Source: Crambe crambe
Lineage: Eukaryota; Porifera; Demospongiae; Poecilosclerida; Crambeidae
Direction of reading: 5' to 3'
Assembly (NCBI GenBank): GCA_963924555.1
Contig: OZ004588.1
Span: 5,146,001-5,210,000 of the forward strand
Length of the DNA stretch: 64,000 nucleotides
The translations under genes were made by a program, and so were the position numbers. Positions 31,143 to 44,907 of this stretch are shown here, piece by piece. Each line of letters opens with the position of its first letter. The first letter of the stretch is position 1. The notes beneath the pieces are model-generated. The model was not told where the DNA came from. It was given only the letters and a program-made list of their open reading frames with translations, and did no database searches.

Positions 31143-34100
31143 TCATCTTTTGTAAGTCTTGGTAATTTCTGATGCAATTGTTTTATCCATAGCTGACACA
31201 GCATCTGCCAGTGACTGCCAAGTAGGACGGATGGCCACACGCTTCAACCATAGTTTAGTCATTTCACGTAGACAGTCATCAGCCTCATGGACGTCATGCT
31301 TGATTCTAGATAGTTCATCTGGTGATAAATCGAGCAAGGTACCAATGTTCTCCCATTTGTGTGCTATGGGAAGCAAAATACGAAAAGCTTCTCCGATTTT
31401 TGGTTCATCTGAACTCCAGTCACTAGTTGCAGGAGGATCCTTGGTGATTGAAGGCGAAGGGAGATCAGAAATGGAATCGGGCGAATCTACTGAATTTCTT
31501 TGTTCTGTGTGACAATGTTTGCTGGACTCAGAACTTTTAGGACCTGAAATGGAATAGGCCGGTCATTAAAGTGTGGAGCATGTAAAATTATTGTGCGAAC
31601 TTACTTGGATCTTCAATATTAAAATAACACTTCATATCTAGTCCCTTCACTCTAAGCTTGATTGGGTTAGAGTGCTCATTTGCAGAATCAAGTAAATGAA
31701 ATTTAATTTTAAGTTTTGGAGGATAATCAGGATACTCAAGTAGCTCTTCAGGTAGATCAATATTCCTTTTTAAAATCTAGAATTTATGCAGTAATGCAGT
31801 CATACAATTCATAGAACATGAGTTTAAAGTTCAGTACAAAGTTCAGTATGTTATTGTGAATATAACCACAAGCTAACTACATTAAATTCAGACAGAGCTG
31901 TAACTCTATGTACTGACCTTAGTGGGTTCTTTGTCAAATATGATGTTCCATCCTTTTCCATCGGCCACATGAAGACTAACTTCATCTGACGTTAGTCGAG
32001 CAGTGACTTCACTCAGGTTCCATTCCTCACCTTTCTTTGCCACCATTTTGTCACAATGCTGTGTGGATATCATAATATATAATAGCTAGATACATCATAA
32101 TACATACTAATACATACCTTTGTATATACTTCATGGTACAAGCACATGCAGAATACTGCCAAGTTTTGAGGTAAACTTCTATACAACCTTGCAGAGTAAT
32201 AGGAAGCGTTTCCTGTGAATTATTGAAGAATAAGCGCATGGTAATAATGTAGTGCAGATGTACCTTTAGATTTCTTTGTTTCAGGGGATTCGGGAGACTT
32301 TGATATCCTTTTCCTTTTACCAACCTTCACTAAGCAAAAGTGCCTCAAGGTGATCTCTCCTATCAGGTATCCAGGTTTGAATACCCCCTTGGCTGCCTTT
32401 ATTTCCTTGAAGACATACACTGGACCAGACTCCCTTAATTCTGGAGTGGCACTTGCTGAGAGGAACACCATGTCATCACAGTCCTCCTCACTCTCCAGAC
32501 AAGCATAGTGGTGGATAATGACTTTAACATCCTCCTGGAATTCCACCCTTCTACTGTGTTTGATGAGATAAGCTGGACTTGCTGACTCACATTCATTGGG
32601 TAGTTGAAATGGTCCACTGAAGCAAGGGTGGATCTGTAGAGTGAGAGGTTCCTTTGCAGAACTCAGTGAGTCTTGAGGGATGGACACACGTATGCCCATG
32701 CCTTCAAGAGTACATTCTCTAGATGTAATAACCTCTTGCATGACTGTTCCTTCAAGTATCAACTCAGGAGAATTCCCTATGATCAACATGTAGGCTAACA
32801 TGCATAACTCTTCTGTGGATTTGCTACTGAACAACATATAGTTGCTCACACACAACTTGGAATGCTAACACACGCACACACACACACACACACACACACG
32901 CACGCACGCACGCACGCATGCACACGCACACACACACGCACGCACGCACGCACACGCACACACACACACGCACGCATGCACGCACGCATGCACACACACA
33001 CACACTTTTAATTAAGATTATTATGCCTACAAAACTTACTTCGATATGTTGCAGTAGATTCTGTGTGATAAACTTTAGTATTTATCTGTGGTCCATATTG
33101 TTGTAACAGTTGCACCATTCGAATGTGTCCAGATTTATTGGCTATTGTGAGAGCAGATGATTCATTGTTATTCAGTAGATTGATTTGAGCATCCCTTTCA
33201 AGTAATAGTTTGACTGTTTCGGTTTGTCCTTTATCGCTTGCAGCCATTAGAGCAGACCATCCATTATTATTCTGTAGATCGATTTGAGCACCCCTTTCGA
33301 GTAATAGTTTGACTGTTTCGGTTTGTCCTTCATCGCTTGCAAACATTAGAGCAGACACTCCGTCATTATCCTGTAGATCGATTTGAGCACCCCTTTCGAG
33401 TAATAGTCTGACTGTTTCGGTTTGTCCTTCATCGCTTGCAGCCATTAGAGCAGACCATCCATCATTATCCTGTAGATCGATTTGAGCACCCCTTTCGAGT
33501 AATAGTTTGACTGTTTTGGTTTGTCCTTCATCGCTTGCAAACATTAGAGCAGACCATCCATCATTATCCTGTAGATCGATTGGAGCACCCCTTTCGAGTA
33601 ATAGTTTGACTGTTTCGGTTTGTCCTTTATCGCTTGCAGCCATTAGAGCAGACACTCCATCATTATCCTGTAGATTGATTTGAGCACCCCTTTCGAGTAA
33701 TAGTTTGACTGTTTCGGTTTGTCCTTCATCGCTTGCAAACATTAGAGCAGACCATCCATCATTATTCTGTAGATCGATTGGAGCACCCCTTTCGAGCAAT
33801 AGTTTGACTGTTTCGGTTTGTCCTTCAACGCTTGCAGCCATTAGAGCAGACATTCCATGATTATCCTGTAGATCGATTTGAGCACCCCTTTCGAGCAATA
33901 GTTTGACTGTTTCGGTTTGTCCTTCAACGCTTGCAGCCATTAGAGCAGACACTCCATCATTATCCTGTAGATCGATTTGAGCACCCCTTTCGAGTAATAG
34001 TTTGACTGTTTCGGTTTGTCCTTCAACGCTTGCAAACATTAGAGCAGACAGTCCATCATTATCCTGCAGATCGATTGGAGCACCCCTTTAGAGTAATAGT

Positions 34101-35920
34101 TTGACTGTTTCGGTTTGTCCTTCAACGCTTGCAGCCATTAGAGCAGACCATCCATTATTATTCTGTAGATTGATTTGAGCACCCCTTTCGAGTAATAGTT
34201 TGACTGTTTTGGTTTGTCCTTTATTAATTGCAAACATTAGAGCAGACCATCCATCATCATCCTGTAGATCGATTGGAGCACCCCTTTCGAGTAATAGTTT
34301 GACTGTTTCGGTTTGTCCTTTACCGCTTGCAGCCATTAGAGCAGACCATCCATTATTATTCTGTAGATCGATTGGAGCACCCCTTTCGAGTAATAGTTTG
34401 ACTGTTTCGGTTTGTCCTTCATCACTTGCAGCCATTAGAGCAGACCATCCATTATTATTCTGTAGATCGATTGGAGCACCCCTTTCGAGTAATAGTTTGA
34501 CTGTTTCGGTTTGTCCTTCATCACTTGCAAACATTAGAGCAGACCATCCATTATTATTCTGTAGATCGATTTGAGCACCCCTTTCGAGTAATAGTTTGAC
34601 TGTTTCGGTTTGTCCTTTATCGCTTGCAGCTATTAGAGCAGACACTCCATCATTATCCTGTAGATCGATTTGAGCACCCCTTTCGAGTAATAGTTTGACT
34701 GTTTCGGTTTGTCCTTTACCGCTTGCAGCCATTAGAGCAGACCATCCATTATTATTCTGTAGATCAATTGGAGCACCCCTTTCGAGTAATAGTTTGACTG
34801 TTTCGGTTTGTCCTTCATCGCTTGCAGCCATTAGAGCAGACCATCCATTATTATTCTGTAGATCGATTGGAGCACCCCTTTCGAGTAATAGTTTGACTGT
34901 TTCAGTTTGTCCTTCATCACTTGCAAACATTAGAGCAGACCATCCATTATTATTCTGTAGATCGATTTGAGCACCCCTTTCGAGTAATAGTTTGACTGTT
35001 TCGGTTTGTCCTTTATCGCTTGCAGCCATTAGAGCAGACCATCCATCATTATCCTGTAGATCGATTTGAGCACCCCTTTCGAGTAATAGTTTGACTGTTT
35101 CGGTTTGTCCTTCATCGCTTGCAAACATTAGAGCAGACCATCCATTATTATTCTGTAGATCGATTGGAGCACCCCTTTCGAGTAATAGTTTGACTGTTTC
35201 GGTTTGTCCTTTATCGCTTGCAGCCATTAGAGCAGATGATCCATTATTATTCTGTAGATCGATTTGAGCACCCCTTTCGAGTAATAGTTTGACTGTTTCA
35301 GTTTGTCCTTTATTGCTTGCAAACATTAGAGCAGACCATCCATTATTATTCTGTAGATCGATTTGAGCACCCCTTTCGAGTAATAGTTTGACTGTTTCGG
35401 TTTGTCCTTCATCACTTGCAAACATTAGAGCAGACCATCCATTATTATTCTGTAGATCGATTTGAGCACCCCTTTCGAATAATAGTTTGACTGTTTCGGT
35501 TTGTCCTTTATTGCTTGCGAACATTAGAGCAGAACATCCATTGCTATCCTCTATATCAGTTACCTCAACACCTTCTTCCAGAAGTTTCTTCACTATTTTA
35601 ATCTGTCCCTTGGAACTCGCTGGTATCATATTCATCTCTTTACTATCACTCATCTGACCCTCTCCACTATCCTCTTCAGTGAATCTTAATATGTTTTTTA
35701 TATTGAGCAGATCTGGTTTATTGAGGTATAATTTAGAGTAACTTTCTTTGGATGTAGAACGCTTAGTGAGCTTCCTATCCTTGTCTGCAGCTATGTATCC
35801 AATCCTAATACCAAATGACCTTATTCTCTCTCCACTTTTCTTCAGTGTTGTTCTCACCAGATGTTTGATTGACTTGGTCCCGTGTTTGTCAGTTCCTTCT
35901 CTAATTTTGGTTATCTCCAT
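31143..35920 (-). CDS. Ankyrin-repeat / ZU5 / UPA-like / Death protein, copy 2 (in-frame stop)
   Basis: Six exons match copy 1 one for one: 35920-33040, 32776-32264, 32212-32118, 32058-31918, 31776-31605 and 31543-31143; 1,400 codons, all in phase. Start [20 protein letters not shown]. About 25 ankyrin units against about 22 in copy 1 account for most of the length difference. ZU5 ([33 protein letters not shown]) and Death ([26 protein letters not shown]) are well preserved. One TAA at 34090-34088 (GAA to TAA, LLLERG becomes LLL-stop) cuts the array about two-thirds of the way through the exon; everything after it stays open. Its start codon faces that of the 2A-Death-MAST gene 326 bp away, which suggests joint control. 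If the stop is real, the product would be an ankyrin-only fragment. Confidence 0.85.
32871..33005. repeat. (CA)n/(CGCA)n microsatellite
   Basis: Alternating purine-pyrimidine tract, prone to Z-DNA, in the intron between the ankyrin and ZU5 exons of copy 2. Copy 1 has a poly-G run in the same intron. Confidence 0.95.
33075..35590 (-). repeat. 99-bp coding tandem array (ankyrin repeats), copy 2
   Basis: About 25 units of 99 bp, even more uniform than in copy 1. The three-unit block carrying [18 protein letters not shown] recurs at about 34330-34560 and 34750-34960 almost unchanged, direct evidence of recent unequal exchange within the array. Confidence 0.9.
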
Positions 35921-36246: not shown

Positions 36247-39200
36247 ATGAAAACTTCAAACATCACAGAAGGTGGTAAGCCTTTAATATTTCGTTACTTA
36301 GCATAGATAAGTGCATATGAAACCTTTCTCCCCCCATGCAGACCTGCTCTCTTGCAGTAACCTTAAAAGTTATCTGGCTAGCCTTTGTGATTCCTACATC
36401 AATCGTTCCTTCATAGCACATATAATTCTCCCCTTGGTGCTGATACTGTCGGGAGATATAGAACTAAATCCTGGACCTGAGAGTGAGTATCTATCTGATA
36501 CAACAATTGAATTTTGGGCCACACAATGAATATCCAGTGCTTTAACTACCATTCCTTGCTCAAAATAATGCTGCATGCCCTTGAATATAGCCACCACCCT
36601 TGAATAGCACCATTAGCTATGTCACCACCTTCAAATAGTATATAGCGCGCACCACTATATATGTCACCACCTTCGAATAGTATATAGTGCGCACCACTAT
36701 TATGTCACCACCCTTGAATAGTAGCACTGCTATAAAATTATGTCACCATGCACCTTTGAATAGTAGTCACATTCCAGTTAGAGCCCATTGAGCACACCAA
36801 TGCTATGCCCTTATTCGTAGCACATACTACTCAATGAGGTGTAGCATACCTAGCATTAATTTACTGGAATTGTACAATAATACCATTCTGAAAATTTGGT
36901 ATCAATATTAATATCTCACAAGTAATTTTAATATAAATTTAATGTAATTTGAGTGAATTTGTACCTCGGTCACCATTATTTTCCTATCTGGCCGGTACTT
37001 GGTATGTAATAACTCTACTTTGGTATGTAACTGCTACTACAGTTGGGAGTCTATGTGATCATAATTATTGCATGTATGTAGCTCTGTTGAGGCCCAATGA
37101 CTTGAAGGAAGTGAGAAATCTTGTTTGGAATGCACAAACCAAGTGGTACGACATTGGCGTGGAGCTATCTCTCGATCCCTATTCCCTCAGAGCCATCAGA
37201 AGAGATTACTCCAATAACTCTGGGGACTGCTTCAATCAAATCTTGCAGGATTGGTTGGAAGGTTGTGGCTCAGAGCCCACATGGAAGAATCTGGCTGCAG
37301 CTCTCAATGCATTACCTGTCAACTTTCCTTCTATTGCTAAATCTATTGAGGAGAAATTCATCACACCTGAGGAATCTAAAGGTACCTGGCGTATAGTTAT
37401 TTTGTAATTGTCTGATGATTCTACATGTAAAGGCAGAGAAGAATTGGTCACTGAAGTACATCACCCTAAGGATACCCTATCACCTGCTCAGCAACTTACA
37501 GAGGGTGACAAAGATCACTTGAAGGCACGCATACGCCATGAAACTAACGAAATTAAGCGTAAATTTGTTAAGGTGGTGTTTCAACTCCAAAAAAATTTAG
37601 AGAAAACTAGTGTCCAGGTTGATGACGTCATAAATGTAATTGCTTGCATGGACCCTGATTTCTCTGAAGTCCTAGAGAAGTGTGATAGCATCGCGAAAAT
37701 CTTCCGTGTTTCCAACAGATACTGGACATTTTTTGACTACATATTAGTCAAGATATTGATTGATAACTTTGGCACACCACAAGATAAGTCCAATTTGGAA
37801 GAGTATCTTGTAGAATTGAAGCATTACTGCAGAAGAATGCTCTGTGACTGTCCCACTGATGCCTTTGGGAAAAGTAGTGGGGAAGACCCCAATAATCAAC
37901 TCATCATAAAGATTGATGGAGAACTAAAGACTATGGATATGCGAAAACTTGAGGTGCTACGCAGTGAATTTTCAATGCATTTGAAGATCAAGTACATGAG
38001 ATTGTTGAGTGTGGACGAAGGTTGTGTTCAGTTGACATTCTTGACACTTCCAAAGAAAAAGGAGTTAGAAATACCAGGTGAATATAATTATATTAACTAT
38101 CATAGTTAGAACCAGAATTTCATGATTTTCAACAGCACAAGTCTTTTTTGTACTATAATTATAGCTGATAAGCTTGCTATAGCTTTCAGCTAGTGACATG
38201 TATACATATACATGTATAAGAATGATGCCTAATGTCCATATATGCAGAAGAGAAGCAAGAGATCTTAAGGAATCTGGGAGTCCTCAGTATTCACTATGGA
38301 GATCAAGAGATTGATCTCCTCTGCAGTGATTCCACACTAGTTGAGGTAAACACAATACTTGCTAATGTTTTTTTCTTATGACATGTATTGTAAATAGCCT
38401 GAAGAGATTGGCGATTTTGATAGGACAATCCAAGAAACTCCGTCCTGTCAGAAAACCTTACTTTCACCTTACAGAACCATGACATCATCTCCTCCACATT
38501 CCATTGCACGTCGACGTTCTGTCTCTCTCAAGCGTCAAACCCCTGTGACTTCTGATCTATGCTATGTTCGAGACAAATGGAGACTATCAGATTCAAAAAA
38601 TGTGAGAAACACAGTTAGCTACGGTATACACATAAATCATGTTATAATTCATAAGATGTGTTAAGAATATGTATAATAGTGTAATAGGATTCCTGACCAA
38701 TAAATACATTCTTAGAGCATTTTTGAATAGATCATACTTCTTTCCTTTTTTTTTTTTTTTTTCAGATAACAAATTTGTATCGAGGAGATAGTTTTAGAAG
38801 TGATTTTTCTGATGATGATTATAATGTGGCTGAAGTTGATGTACGTCATGATAGACTCAAGCTACCTGTACGTGCACAGAGTCTCAAACATCGTAAATCT
38901 CAAACACAAACTTCTTTCTTAACTTCCTCTCCTAGTGGCTACCCTGGTGAGTTATAGCTCATAATATCTAGCATGCAGTTAAGAGAATGTTACAGCATTA
39001 AATTTTATTGAGAAATTTAATTTTTAGATTTCTCAGGAGCAGTGTTGCCATTTTCACTGGCACAGTTTGCTGCAGGACAACTGTAAGGCTGATCAGTGTG
39101 TGTGTGTGCATGCATGTGTGTGTGCATGCATGGTGCGTGTGTGTGTGATTATGTGACTCAATAAATGCTTTCAGTACAAATAATTATATAACATTCACAG

Positions 39201-42200
39201 GTACAATGAACGTCGTTGGTCAATAGTCTCAGCTTCATCTGGATACTTCACAAATTCTCCTGGATCATTATCGGCAAGTAGCTATAGCTAATCATAATCC
39301 TTTTTACTCTGAAAATTATACACTTCTTTTATCATAGTCACATCCATCCGATGAACAAATACATCAGGTAAGTAGTAAATGCTCTCCAGATTTTACTCAT
39401 GCCTGCATAATGATCTTGAATTGCCATGGAAGTTTCAGGGTTGTATGTGACACACACACACACTATTAGCTCCCCAAAATGCCCACCATGGATGATTCCA
39501 GCTCACTTTGTCATTGGGAATCAAATTCAAGCGTGAATAGTGACACTCATGAAGAGTTTAGAATACTCACCCTAGCAAGAAATTTCAGGTACTTTTAATA
39601 CTTGCTGAGGGTATATGTAGCTATTTCAATTATTATGTTAATCCTTGAAAGGTCACTTCAAGAGGTAGCTCCACCAGACTTTAAGTCAACAAGAGCCATT
39701 TTTGAAGATAAAATCTCTAGTGTCCAAGATGAAATGGAAGAAAAATTACAGGTATTATTATGATCATAATCAGTAGCTAGCTAGCTCTATCATAATTATT
39801 GGGAATCCAACAAACAACAGTTGTGTTTGTGTGTCAGTAGCAAAAGAGCTCTGTCATTAATGTTCATTTAAAAAAGGTATGCAGTTCTATGTGCATCTGC
39901 ATCATCATTCAAAACTTATCATAGTTCCAAAAATAGTTGTCAGCATCTTGGAATGTAAAGCAGTTGGTAGTTAGCTGTGTATTTTAATATCCCAGTTAAT
40001 AGCTAGTGTCTTAACACAAGTGCCACACATGCAAACTGAATGTATTTCAACTTTCTTTCATTAGGAATTCCTTATTGAATACCCGGAAGAAATTTTGTCA
40101 TCAGTTTTGATGGCCAGCTATGGAAAACACAAGATTTTGGAATGTGCTTATGATATTCTTGATCAATCTCAAAATGGGTCATTGGATACAGCATCGTTTG
40201 TCCATATGTCAGATTGTCTGGAACTAATATTGATAGAGGTACGTATAGTGTAATACATTCATTCTTCACTCTATCATTAATTTTATGCATGTACCAATCG
40301 TACAGGAGAAAGAGCAAACCAAGTCTAAGCCTATGCAACTCCAACAAATGGTCAGAAAACTTTTGACTGTAGTGGGACAAACAGCAAGACTTTTTGAGCT
40401 AAAGGTAGTTATGTCATGACTATACAGGATGAAAGTTCATGAGCTAAATTCTTGACCGTAACATTGATTATAGCTGGCTAAAAAAATTAAAAAAAATTTT
40501 TTCTTCAGGATTTCAAGCCAGAAAAATTGAATAACTCTGAACTAGTATCATCCTCTTTGGTTCCATATGTGCAAAGTCGACTTGGCATACTCACTACAGG
40601 AGAAGAAAGTGAGTGGTAATAATGTGTACAGTGGCGGAACCTTTGATAAAGGACACTCAATCTAAAAGTACCTTTGTATTGGTCCTAAGTGTGTCCATTA
40701 TTGGAGATTCCACTGTGTTATCATGTAGCATAAGAGTGGTTCCAAAATTAGCTAGTGCTGTTTTTAATGTTTAATACAGATACATGTGATGAATTAAGCG
40801 GAGAAGAGATGACGGTTGATGAAATGAAGCCAAACCTTGATGATTTTACAACTGTTAGAACTGTCAGCAAAGGGGATTTTAGGTGAGATTCAATTTCTTC
40901 CTGCCAATTATCAATGTAGATATTGACCTGTAGTGTGGTTCATTTGGTGCGGCATGACCAGATGAAAAAACGCTTTGCCCTTAAAAAAATTAGTAAACAT
41001 TGGATGGACATGAAGCAGATTCAGCAGGATTCCCCAAAATCTACTCTCAACAAGAATCCATTTTTAGTTGGATTATGGTGTACCTTTTCGACAGAGGTAT
41101 GTATGAATGATGATACCATGCATGGATTTAATACTGTAGTGAAATTATTTTTTTGTTGCAGTCAAGTGCATGAGGAACTAGCTAATCATTCCAGTAATTT
41201 GTTGTTGTTTTTCATTGTTTTTTTTGCTAACGTAGCAGATATGTTCTTCCAGTTCACTCCTTTGCAATACGGCGATGTCATCAGCTAAAGCTTTGCTTTG
41301 CATTTCCCTAGTAGCTAAATAGTGCACAGCATGACTACCATCAAGGTTAACTATTCGATATTTATACAGAACTGCCTCTCAGTGGTGATGGAATACTTAG
41401 AAGGTGGTGACTTGAGCATGCTGTTGAAGAATGTTGGTTGTCTCACTCTGGAAGTTGCCAGAGGTTACTTTGCAGAGATGGTCCTTGCATTGGAGTACAT
41501 TCAAAACTTAGGGATCATACACAGACATCTCAAACCTGACAAGTGGGTTCATTGTGTTTCTGGTTTGCAGTAAGTTTGCTGCCACAATTACCATGCAGGT
41601 TACTTCCTCCCTGCCTCCTTTAGTAGATAGAACCCTGCCATGTTAGCTACTACATTTAGTTAGCATGCTCATTTTTTTTAACATGCAGGCCACTATAATA
41701 TTATCTTCCATTCAGTGTCCATGGCTATGGCTATGGCTATGTAATGCAACCCTTGGATTATCCTTTTATTACTATTATTATCAAACAGTATATTGATCAC
41801 ATGTGAGGGACATATTAAAGTGACAGATTATGGCTTGTCAAAGATCGGACTAGTGAACTGTAGGTCATGAAATTAACTATACATTGATTAACTAATATAA
41901 ATTTATCTTTACAATGTATGCAGACACAGCTCATGTGATTGAAGAAGCCAAGTTGCATGATCATGTTTATGACTCAAAAGTGTATAAAAACCTGGATTAC
42001 ATTGCACCCGAAGTGATCTTGGGACAGGAGCACGGCTTTGGAGTAGACTGGTGGTCAATGGGAGTAATCTTGCATGCAATGCTCATTGGAACTAGACCTT
42101 TCCGCTACAAAACGTTACAGGAATTATTTGATCAAATCATTAATGGTAAATATATCCCTGAACGTAGCTAGCTATAGCTGAAGTTATTAGTTGCAGGTGT

Positions 42201-44907
42201 TATTTTTTTGCACACAGAAAATCATACTATTATATGGCATGAAGAAGACGAGGAAGATATTATTCAGAAAGAAGTCAAGCAATTGATACAAGATTTGCTC
42301 TGCAGTGATCCACATTATAGATTGGGTGGAACCTTCAGGGAGGGCATAGCAGGAGTGAAAAGGCAGCCCTTCTTTAAGTTTTCAGACTCAGATTGGCAGA
42401 ATCTACTGCAGAAGAAAGTGGAGTATATGCCTAAATATATTGGGAAGGATGCTATGAGTTACCATGAGAGTGAGTGGTTGCAATTTAGATGAGAATCCAA
42501 TAGCACATTGTGTTTCTCTCCTATCCTTAGCCATCCAGTTATGTTTTTTACTGCATATCATAGCTGCTATAGCTACAATTAAGTATTATATGTAATGTAA
42601 TGCAGCCTCTCCTGACTACCATACCCATAGCGTTGTGAGTGATGAAGAGGATGTAGAAGCCACTCGTTCTTCCTTCCGCTACTCTTACTCTGCCACCATA
42701 CCTTCTCAATTCTCAACAACACCCAGCAAGCAATCTAGTCTGGATAAGGAAACTCAGAAATTGAAGGAGAGAAAGGATTCTGGCATTTCAGAATCAGAAG
42801 AGAAATTCAATCCAACAGCAGAACAGTCAGAAACAGCAGAGAATAGTGTTACCAATATTGATGACGTCTCTGACAAGGAAACTAATGTTCCACCCATTTC
42901 AAGAGAAACCACACCCTCTCCAAGTTCGAAAAGTCGTAAAGTCAGCAATCTCTCTGTCATCTTGGGAATTCCCTCCAAACCAAAATACCTTGAAGTTCCA
43001 TACGAACCTGCTCAGCCAAGTTCTAGATCACAAGATCACTCATCAACTTTCCATGCCCCTTCTTCAACTATCCCTCATATGCTGTCTCCTCTCTCATCTA
43101 GTATGACTGCACAACAAAGGAGGGTGGCTCGGATTGAAGATGTAACTCAGCTCATGGGGTCACATGATTTTAGCTTCACTGTATCTCCATCTACTCCAGG
43201 TTATAGTCATTCATTTATAACTTACATATATAGCTCATGTAATAGTTAAACCATGCCTACAAGGGCTGTAGCTACCAAGGGTGAAGGCAATAATTATATC
43301 CAGTACAACATGAGGGTAAGGCATGGTTTAATATTACATTAAAAATGTAACTGCATCTCTACACATTTTTTCCACATCACATAAAGCTACATTCACACTT
43401 TCTTTGGTCTAACTATAGAGCAAGAAATCTTACAGTTCTTTGCCAGTGAAACTATTATAAAGACTGGTTTTATACAGTGTTGTGAGTAGACATCATTTAG
43501 TTGGCATTATTCATACATGGTTTATGTATTTAAGATACCTTACTGAAATTATTCAATGCAGCATTATGTGATGACCTTTACAAACACTTCTGGGTTATCT
43601 TCTTTGTTACTTCTATAAAGGAGTTGTGCTTGGGTTGTAGTTTTGCCCCTATTGATAATTTATGCTCTTATATGCACTGTAGAGCTCTATTCTCAACTCT
43701 CATACAAAAGCCAAAATTATTTGCCATCTTCTAATTCTTAGCCATTGCTTGACAGTTCAGTAGGCTAGCATATGCCATTTTCTTGTTCTAATTTGCTTGA
43801 TTTACACGACGTCGTATGACATTATGTTAAGTGATGATCTTTACCAACTGTATTTATTCTTCATTTCTTACTAATTTTTCTACTTGGTATGTGGTGATTT
43901 TTGTGGAGGGAATGAAGATGTTACCCTAGCAATATCAAGAAGTGTAGCTAGTTGAAATGCAGTTTGGAGTATTTTTAATAATAAGGGTCATCACTGTTGC
44001 CATGGGATTTGGGTCATAAAAACCTCACTTAATTATCTGTTTTCTAAGCAATGGTTGAGAAATAGAAGATGACAATCTTTGGCTCTGCTATGAAAGTAGC
44101 TAGTAAAAAAAAACCTCTAGTGTGCCTGTAAGAACTATAGATGTAATCATCATCATCATCATCATCATCATTATTACTTTATGCAGATCTGCAGGACAGC
44201 TCCACTAGTAATGCAACATTGTCTATGAGAAGTCCAGTCAGAAATTCAATGACGGCCATCCCTTTCACTGTCAGCAGAAGCCATTCAGGGTATGGCCTCA
44301 TGCTGAAATCCATCCGAGTCTACATTGGAAATACAAATGACTATAAAATGCACCACATCATTGAGGTGAGTAAAAGGGTACACCAATTTAATAGCTATAA
44401 CATTAGAACATAATAATTTTATAGAATGTTGATGAAATGGGTCCAGCATGGGAAGCGGGACTTCATCCCAACCAATTAGTCACCCACATAAATGGTGAAG
44501 CAATCAGTGGACTCCAACATGTTCAAGTTATAACTCTTACGATCAAAAGATCCACCATCAACATCAGCACCATTCCTCTGGACCAGACCACCATCCGTAA
44601 GGATAAGCAGGTGAGAGATCCATTTTGGGGGCATCGCATTGGCAAACTTCTTAGACACCACTCCAGTTCAAGTCAGAGAGTGAGGAAAAAGTCATCTATT
44701 AATCGCTTCCGAGATATGGAGAGAGGCTATCCCCGGCACTCCTCTAGCAACCTTCCTTCTCCACTGGTGTCTTCACCCCACAGATCGAGTTCATTCAAGA
44801 ATCGGAAGAATGGGAACTCTATATCCATCCTTGCTAGGAACACTTCACCAAGTCCTTCCATTCTGGATGCAATTCAAAACTCCTCTGGATCTAGACTATG
44901 TAGTTAG
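36247..44907 (+). CDS. 2A leader - Death - helical region - MAST (pseudo)kinase - PDZ fusion
   Basis: Twenty-four exons stay in phase from ATG 36247 to TAG 44905-44907 (1,528 aa): 36247-36274, 36342-36482, 37082-37381, 37433-38077, 38248-38345, 38398-38601, 38766-38946, 39028-39082, 39201-39273, 39338-39367, 39470-39588, 39652-39751, 40065-40238, 40306-40404, 40509-40608, 40780-40882, 40934-41096, 41370-41542, 41789-41859, 41924-42145, 42218-42469, 42606-43199, 44187-44365, 44425-44907. Residues 33-55 are hydrophobic and end [11 protein letters not shown] (2A). Residues 60-150 are a Death domain ([18 protein letters not shown]). Residues 157-405 are an unnamed helical region. Residues 420-600 are Ser/Arg-rich ([11 protein letters not shown]). 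Residues 626-780 are the MAST pre-kinase domain. Residues about 803-1,060 are an AGC kinase fold most like MAST. Residues 1,110-1,308 are Ser/Thr-rich and 1,333-1,425 a PDZ ([31 protein letters not shown]). The kinase keeps the VAIK Lys (FALKK) and DYG, but HRD reads HRH, the helix-C Glu is lost and the Gly loop is reduced. An internal start at 38478 could give a MAST-only form. Confidence 0.8.
36449..36478 (+). other. 2A-like ribosome-skipping motif ([10 protein letters not shown])
   Basis: Codons 46-55 read [10 protein letters not shown], matching the 2A consensus D-[V/I]-E-x-N-P-G-P at every fixed position, preceded by the hydrophobic [13 protein letters not shown]. By known 2A chemistry the Gly54-Pro55 bond would be skipped, freeing a 54-residue leader and a Death-MAST protein starting with Pro. 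If skipping fails, the leader could act as a signal anchor. Activity is inferred, not shown. Confidence 0.85.
36583..36775. repeat. Tandem repeat of about 50 bp in the 2A-Death intron
   Basis: About four degenerate units containing ATGTCACCACC and CTTGAATAG lie in the long intron between the 2A exon and the Death exon. Confidence 0.75.
40627..40717. mobile_element. Short miniature element, GGAACC type
   Basis: Ends ACAGTGGCGGAACC and GGAGATTCCACTGT, 91 bp, with the GGACACT and GTGTCC words of the family. It lies in an intron of the MAST fusion gene between the exons at 40509 and 40780. Confidence 0.6.
44147..44173. repeat. (ATC)n microsatellite
   Basis: Nine ATC units just upstream of the PDZ exon. 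The rest of the 43200-44186 intron shows no further feature. Confidence 0.9.

Follow-up and report, generated by a model that had tools for sequence, protein, structure and literature searches.

A consensus 2A (StopGo) motif stands in frame with a predicted Death-MAST protein of the sponge Crambe crambe, and the leader that carries it belongs to a genome-wide set of such leaders. The gene lies in the window, the 64-kb stretch of DNA that was analyzed. Its second exon is probably a host StopGo leader module at which ribosomes mostly skip and, in a minority of passages, read through into a membrane-directed form. The features on which this reading draws are the following.

36247..36274, + strand: exon 1 (MKTSNITEG), ending in phase 1, donor GTAAGC.
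36342..36482, + strand: exon 2, the 2A leader exon, 141 nt, phase 1 at both ends, AG acceptor and GTGAGT donor.
36410..36448, + strand: hydrophobic stretch in the 2A leader exon, a StopGo L-rich upstream motif and possible signal anchor.
36455..36478, + strand: core octapeptide DIELNPGP, with the skip predicted between Gly (36473-36475) and Pro (36476-36478).
37082..37381, + strand: exon 3, probable Death domain (PF00531), 300 nt, phase 1 at both ends.
37433..38077, + strand: exon 4, a region without a Pfam name, resembling by eye the open reading frames (ORFs) in L023 and L024.
39028..40404 (approximate), + strand: DUF1908 (MAST) region, exons 8-14 (PF08926, E 1.4e-28, residues 540-756).
40780..42469 (approximate), + strand: protein kinase region, exons 16-21 (PF00069, E 2.9e-46, residues 806-1063).
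44187..44907, + strand: PDZ region and C terminus, exons 23-24 (PF17820, E 3.5e-7), the last exon set by hand.

The octapeptide DIELNPGP has the form of the StopGo core (D/G/C/N)(V/I)ExNPGP, and the hexapeptide read directly before its D, VLILSG, is of the L-rich class that ends in (A/S/C)G. An earlier note on this DNA had described an exact match to the consensus D-[V/I]-E-x-N-P-G-P, and the match is indeed exact: the pattern GGNGAYRTNGARNNNAAYCCNGGNCC, with up to two mismatches allowed, is found once in the 64 kb (36452-36477) and on average 0.00 times in 100 shuffles, and NPGP occurs a single time across the six frames of the window, as the leader motif. Chance as the origin of the window motif is ruled out by the shuffles and, for the genome, by the reversed control given below. 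The placing of the motif at residues 46-55 proved right once exon 1 is joined in the spliced model; a translation from base 36342 is out of frame because exon 2 starts in phase 1 (the frame is kept from 36341). The hydrophobic stretch reported right before the motif is also present, the best 15-mer of the leader starting at residue 33 with a Kyte-Doolittle mean of 2.40. The leader is N-terminal, its hydrophobic stretch adjoins the 2A motif and, in the gene model, coding sequence continues in frame on both sides of the motif. A repeat search around the gene found nothing beyond a 42-nt sequence that is duplicated in tandem, with copies 88% alike, within the intron 3' of the 2A exon (36607-36690).

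Donors and acceptors read from the DNA yield a model of 24 exons and an open protein of 1528 aa, in which the 2A leader, Death, DUF1908, kinase and PDZ follow in this order; 23 exons were assembled by script without a stop, and the last exon and the end of the gene were set by hand. An in-frame TAA precedes the ATG at 36247 by 8 codons, and position -3 of this ATG is an A. The first four exon joints of the model are in phase 1 throughout, and because the 2A exon and the Death exon are each phase 1-1, each could be gained, lost or skipped with the frame intact. The order DUF1908-kinase-PDZ is that of the MAST kinase family, and by its predicted domains the window gene is a MAST kinase with an added Death domain and a 2A leader, in support of the earlier description of a leader that precedes a Death domain and a MAST-type kinase. 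PF00531 scores 24.8 bits on the Death exon as an exon ORF and 20.9 bits in the full protein, against a cut-off of 22.6, and a profile of 11 relatives of this Death domain has three weak PDB matches (E 0.05-0.074), which include PIDD and a leucine-rich repeat and death domain protein. The usual kinase motifs are HRD and DFG. In the window, the MAST-type kinase motifs read directly from the model at 41370-41859 are HRHLKPDN and DYG, and with HRH and DYG in place of HRD and DFG the protein may be a pseudokinase whose catalysis is doubtful. No match to NACHT was found in the window protein, which is therefore not counted as an NLR carrier, and none to reverse transcriptase. A protein search for orthologues in other species, in a database that may be poor in animals, gave one match, marked as the window's own ORF, and the genome holds a further DUF1908 match at C12:6.87 Mb. 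Among the ORFs that resemble exon 4, Pfam gave no family for the one in L024 and a weak match below the cut-off for the one in L023. On the opposite strand of the window (34088-35920, -), a 610-aa ORF that by eye resembles ankyrin repeats begins some 330 bases away from the Death-MAST gene and runs in the other direction; the two may share a promoter region.

Further D-[VI]-E-x-N-P-G-P leaders, for which the earlier note had proposed a search, were sought within the same genome and are numerous. Across the 143-Mb genome, a degenerate DNA pattern for GD(V/I)ExNPGP, which at the second place also admits M, yields 207 exact matches, and its reversed control yields 0. Allowing one mismatch adds just 14 matches, more decayed copies being invisible to the pattern, and a similarity search with the window leader gave 134 places. 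The 177 located sites used below comprise 100 plus 42 listed exact matches, the window itself and 34 sites known by similarity alone (at least one of which, L050, has the variant GNVELNPGP); 143 of the 177 are known to be exact, and 64 of the 207 exact matches are not among them as such. Located sites spread over fourteen contigs, and many form clusters, for example at C9 0.3-0.57 Mb, C8 0.6-1.09 and 6.3-7.5 Mb, C5 4.6-6.4 and 9.0-9.2 Mb, C10 4.1-4.5 Mb, C11 2.3-3.75 Mb and C1 3.55-3.99 Mb. Upstream of the motif the leaders are very diverse, with about a dozen types distinguished by eye. A G|GTRAG donor follows the motif directly in 75 of the 207 exact matches; among 46 distinct sites that were read, a GTRAG donor follows the motif by no more than 36 nt in 41, always in phase 1, and 5 have none.

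Several loci depart from the short leader of the window. In L030-L032, L034, L036, L038 and L039, the leader is open in frame over at least 115 aa (part of which may be intron) and has by eye a second hydrophobic segment, Cys and N-glycosylation sequons; such a long leader, if released, could be a small membrane protein. At L021 (C8 6.61 Mb), a 601-aa ORF that contains a strong hydrophobic segment lies after each of two 2A leaders, and the first of these ORFs, the one that was scanned, has no Pfam match over the cut-off. In L027 and L035 (C5 6.34 and 5.00 Mb), a Lys comes after GDIELNPGP, the next 36 nt contain no GTRAG donor, and none of the listed Death matches lies within 3 kb; these two are possibly another kind of element.

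The exons downstream of the leaders were sought in the genome with PF00531, the window Death exon and three Death-like exons from other clusters, each search scoring 150 of 334 to 965 candidates. The association test at 2 kb took 377 of 750 matches, with one Death-like search entering in full (150) and the other four through selections that leaned toward contigs with sites, which may favour an association. Among the matches listed, a Death or Death-like exon lies within 2 kb downstream on the same strand at 105 of the 177 sites, compared with 1 of 177 upstream and 0 of 177 on the opposite strand. In 200 draws of random positions from the same contigs, the corresponding count averaged 0.85 and never exceeded 3, and for sites shifted by 3-15 kb within the clusters it averaged 8.5 and reached 18 at most; at 71 of the 177 sites there is no Death match within 3 kb, again among the matches listed. 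When one Death-like search was taken with all its 150 matches, 45 had a located 2A site within 1 kb upstream and none had one downstream or on the opposite strand; for the 33 best of these matches the upstream figure is 28. With the window Death exon matches and part of the PF00531 matches, a Death exon lies within 1.5 kb downstream at 22 of 177 sites, upstream and on the opposite strand at 0 (among the matches listed). In the C10 cluster at 4.1-4.5 Mb, all 15 located sites precede a Death exon of the window type. The splice donors, together with this association with Death or Death-like exons, point to a host exon module rather than a LINE remnant.

Other domains also follow 2A motifs. In L026 the motif is followed by a Death-like exon and a NACHT ORF, and Ig-domain ORFs lie downstream in L037 and in L022 (C1 3.91 Mb), the one locus examined in the C1 cluster of nine 2A sites. 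Since Ig domains are normally extracellular, the read-through form at L022 might be the working one. Ankyrin genes were not counted as 2A carriers, the ankyrin ORF of L023 following a second Death-like exon without a located 2A site.

The more distant Death-like families are candidates for true Death domains. In profile comparisons with the window Death type, hhalign gave probabilities of 98% for the C11 type and 93% for the C8 type (two sequences each) and 63% for the C9 type. Pfam support is weak for three of the four Death-like query families: PF00531 matches 4 of 12 members of the C9 type at E up to 0.1 (best 0.0014), and no Pfam match was found for the Death-like exons of L026 and L033 or for the first ones of L030 and L031, where later exons match PF00531 at 20.5 bits (L030) and 24.8 bits (L031). 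The C9-type profile had no PDB match. For the C8 type, a low-confidence six-helix model (mean pLDDT 67.7, two sequences) had no Foldseek match at E 0.001, a death domain (1wxp) ranking eighth at E 6.3, and it is called Death-like because of the hhalign comparison with the window type.

Divergence was compared in 15 C10 paralogs (L012, L041-L054). Over the last 26 leader codons the mean pairwise difference is 1.8%, whereas the adjoining intron differs by 17.8% and the Death exon by 17.2%. The 2A exon of this cluster thus shows about a tenth of the divergence of the intron behind it, even at synonymous sites. The Death exon has a pN/pS of 0.34; in the leader this ratio is 0.30 for the last 26 codons and 0.12 for the last 14; pS itself is 0.036 in the leader versus 0.355 in the Death exon. 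So low a pS argues for gene conversion or constraint on the nucleotides rather than plain selection at the protein level, and the pN/pS figures alone are not proof of protein-level selection on the leader. The GNVELNPGP variant of L050 occurs among these paralogs, and N at the first core position is reported from a viral site and was active when tested (PMC12846837). Leaders can also be lost, as indicated by relics. Four related Death genes (L055-L058) have no intact 2A motif in the 1.5 kb examined in each, and three of them (L055, L056 and L058, at C10 0.63-0.86 Mb and C8 2.95 Mb) retain stretches 64-79% identical to C9-type leaders; the match stops where the motif would begin in L055 and L056, and in L058 it extends into the motif region, with the motif gone.

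On the proposed mechanism, most ribosomes that pass the leader would skip the Gly-Pro bond, releasing a hydrophobic leader of 54 residues that ends in NPG and a cytosolic protein that starts Pro-Glu-Thr-Leu and holds Death, DUF1908, kinase and PDZ. In a minority of passages the bond would form, and the hydrophobic stretch, now joined to the Death domain, would take the protein to the ER or another membrane. Thus, one mRNA would give products at two places, and splicing out the phase 1-1 exon 2 (141 nt) would give a third, leaderless cytosolic form. Skipping is inferred from viral StopGo (PMC12846837), and the two fates are inferred from the sea urchin leaders (PMC4981915). That the window leader causes skipping appears very likely; that the read-through form is both directed to a membrane and used has a chance slightly below even.

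The hydrophobic stretch does not discriminate between dual targeting and plain release, since it suits a signal anchor as well as a StopGo upstream motif. The main rival is therefore that skipping is constitutive and no membrane form is put to use. Skipping would then be near complete, the leader would be a small membrane peptide or be discarded, and the arrangement would serve either to free the leader or to give the protein a defined N-terminal Pro. Viral upstream classes skip at about 92.7% to almost 100% in the tests reported in PMC12846837, the hydrophobic stretch itself belongs to a StopGo class and need not be a signal, and the leaders that are open over at least 110 aa, with the second hydrophobic segment, Cys and sequons seen by eye, could themselves be the product. 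Yet the window leader is short, with no clear product of its own, and the sea urchin leader that was tested leaves a share of the product in the medium (PMC4981915). Constitutive skipping without dual targeting is rated rather unlikely for this gene.

It is very improbable that the leader is a signal peptide or anchor alone, with an inactive 2A motif. The hydrophobic stretch near the N terminus would suit it, but the octapeptide, which a signal peptide does not need, recurs across some dozen otherwise very different leader types (by eye), and exact copies outnumber those with one mismatch by 207 to 14. The least probable reading, with hardly a chance, is that of a LINE remnant or chance ORF exonised by accident. 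2A-like sequences are known in non-LTR retrotransposons (PMC4981915; PMC11512398), and the C5 sites L027 and L035, which lack a near GTRAG donor and a Death match, could be another kind. Against this, the sites belong to gene clusters, accompanied by splice donors and by Death or Death-like exons, and 4 of 128 reverse transcriptase matches are within 8 kb of a located site, among the matches listed (150 of 801 reverse transcriptase candidates were scored and 22 of those 150 left out). A LINE origin of the leader was rejected on the positions of the reverse transcriptase matches listed and on the gene structure, and the leader does not qualify as a LINE-borne 2A; the earlier reading as a host copy is supported, the leader being a predicted spliced exon in an open host gene with little association with the reverse transcriptase matches listed.

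The preferred reading, a host module with mostly skipping and some membrane-directed read-through, can be extended, tentatively, to the whole set. StopGo would then be a general phase-1 exon cassette placed before Death-domain and other genes: in immune-type families it would yield a free hydrophobic leader and a cytosolic Death protein, with the amount of membrane form set by the rate at which skipping fails; long leaders would be a second functional membrane protein; and paralogs with decayed leaders would be a branch fixed in one compartment.

Cellular StopGo motifs are reported to be very rare (PMC12846837). Against that rarity, about two hundred motifs in one animal genome, many of which are linked to splice donors and to Death or Death-like exons, suggest large-scale use of ribosome-skipping leaders by one animal. 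No report of 2A in sponges, on non-NLR Death genes or on Death-MAST genes was found among the open-access papers searched, and the parts of the main text of a sponge NLR paper that were searched contain neither '2A peptide' nor 'NPGP' (PMC12909245). If the leaders are active, programmed skipping of a peptide bond would be a normal part of animal gene expression and would be linked to Death-fold signalling outside NLRs, and the intact and decayed leaders would form a natural series for testing the use of dual targeting. If the reading of the long leaders is true, these loci would be genuine two-protein animal genes.

Among known systems, the window gene shares with MAST kinases the order of DUF1908, kinase and PDZ and adds the 2A leader, the Death domain and the HRH and DYG motifs. 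For viral StopGo, a consensus core (D/G/C/N)(V/I)ExNPGP is described together with several upstream classes, four of which were tested, one of them L-rich (motif 6) (PMC12846837). The window leader has in common with this L-rich class the core octapeptide and an L-rich stretch that ends in (A/S/C)G before the D; the viral motifs are located in virus ORFs, whereas here the motif is N-terminal in spliced host genes. In animal genomes the same core motif is reported from the 2A sequences that non-LTR retrotransposons carry (Odon 2013, cited by both PMC4981915 and PMC11512398), but the Crambe motif is in a predicted spliced exon with little association with the reverse transcriptase matches listed.

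The closest parallel is SpNLR2A of the sea urchin Strongylocentrotus purpuratus, in which N-terminal 2A-like signal sequences are found on NLR genes (PMC4981915), and the comparison drawn in the earlier note is thus apt. These leaders are 26 aa long and were counted on 85 of 241 NLR proteins at first and in 14 of 87 entries later. The N-terminal 2A leader recodes at about 80% in vitro by the authors' estimate, and acts as a signal sequence if recoding is blocked, with 15% of the product in the medium for the natural leader and 44% with recoding blocked (PMC4981915). Both systems have an N-terminal hydrophobic leader ending in D(V/I)ExNPGP, host genes of immune type, many genomic copies and a switch between the cytosol and the secretory route, which in both is a proposal. 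What is new relative to the sea urchin, judged from the predicted genes, is that the window carrier is not an NLR, that more gene types are involved and that the leader is built as a phase-1 exon. SpNLR2A carriers are NLRs, whereas the window carrier combines Death with a MAST kinase and has no NACHT match. Unlike SpNLR2A, the Crambe leader is a phase 1-1 exon that occurs in about a dozen types (by eye) before Death, Death-like and other exons, in a set that includes a single NACHT locus (L026) and loci where Ig ORFs lie downstream (L022 and L037).
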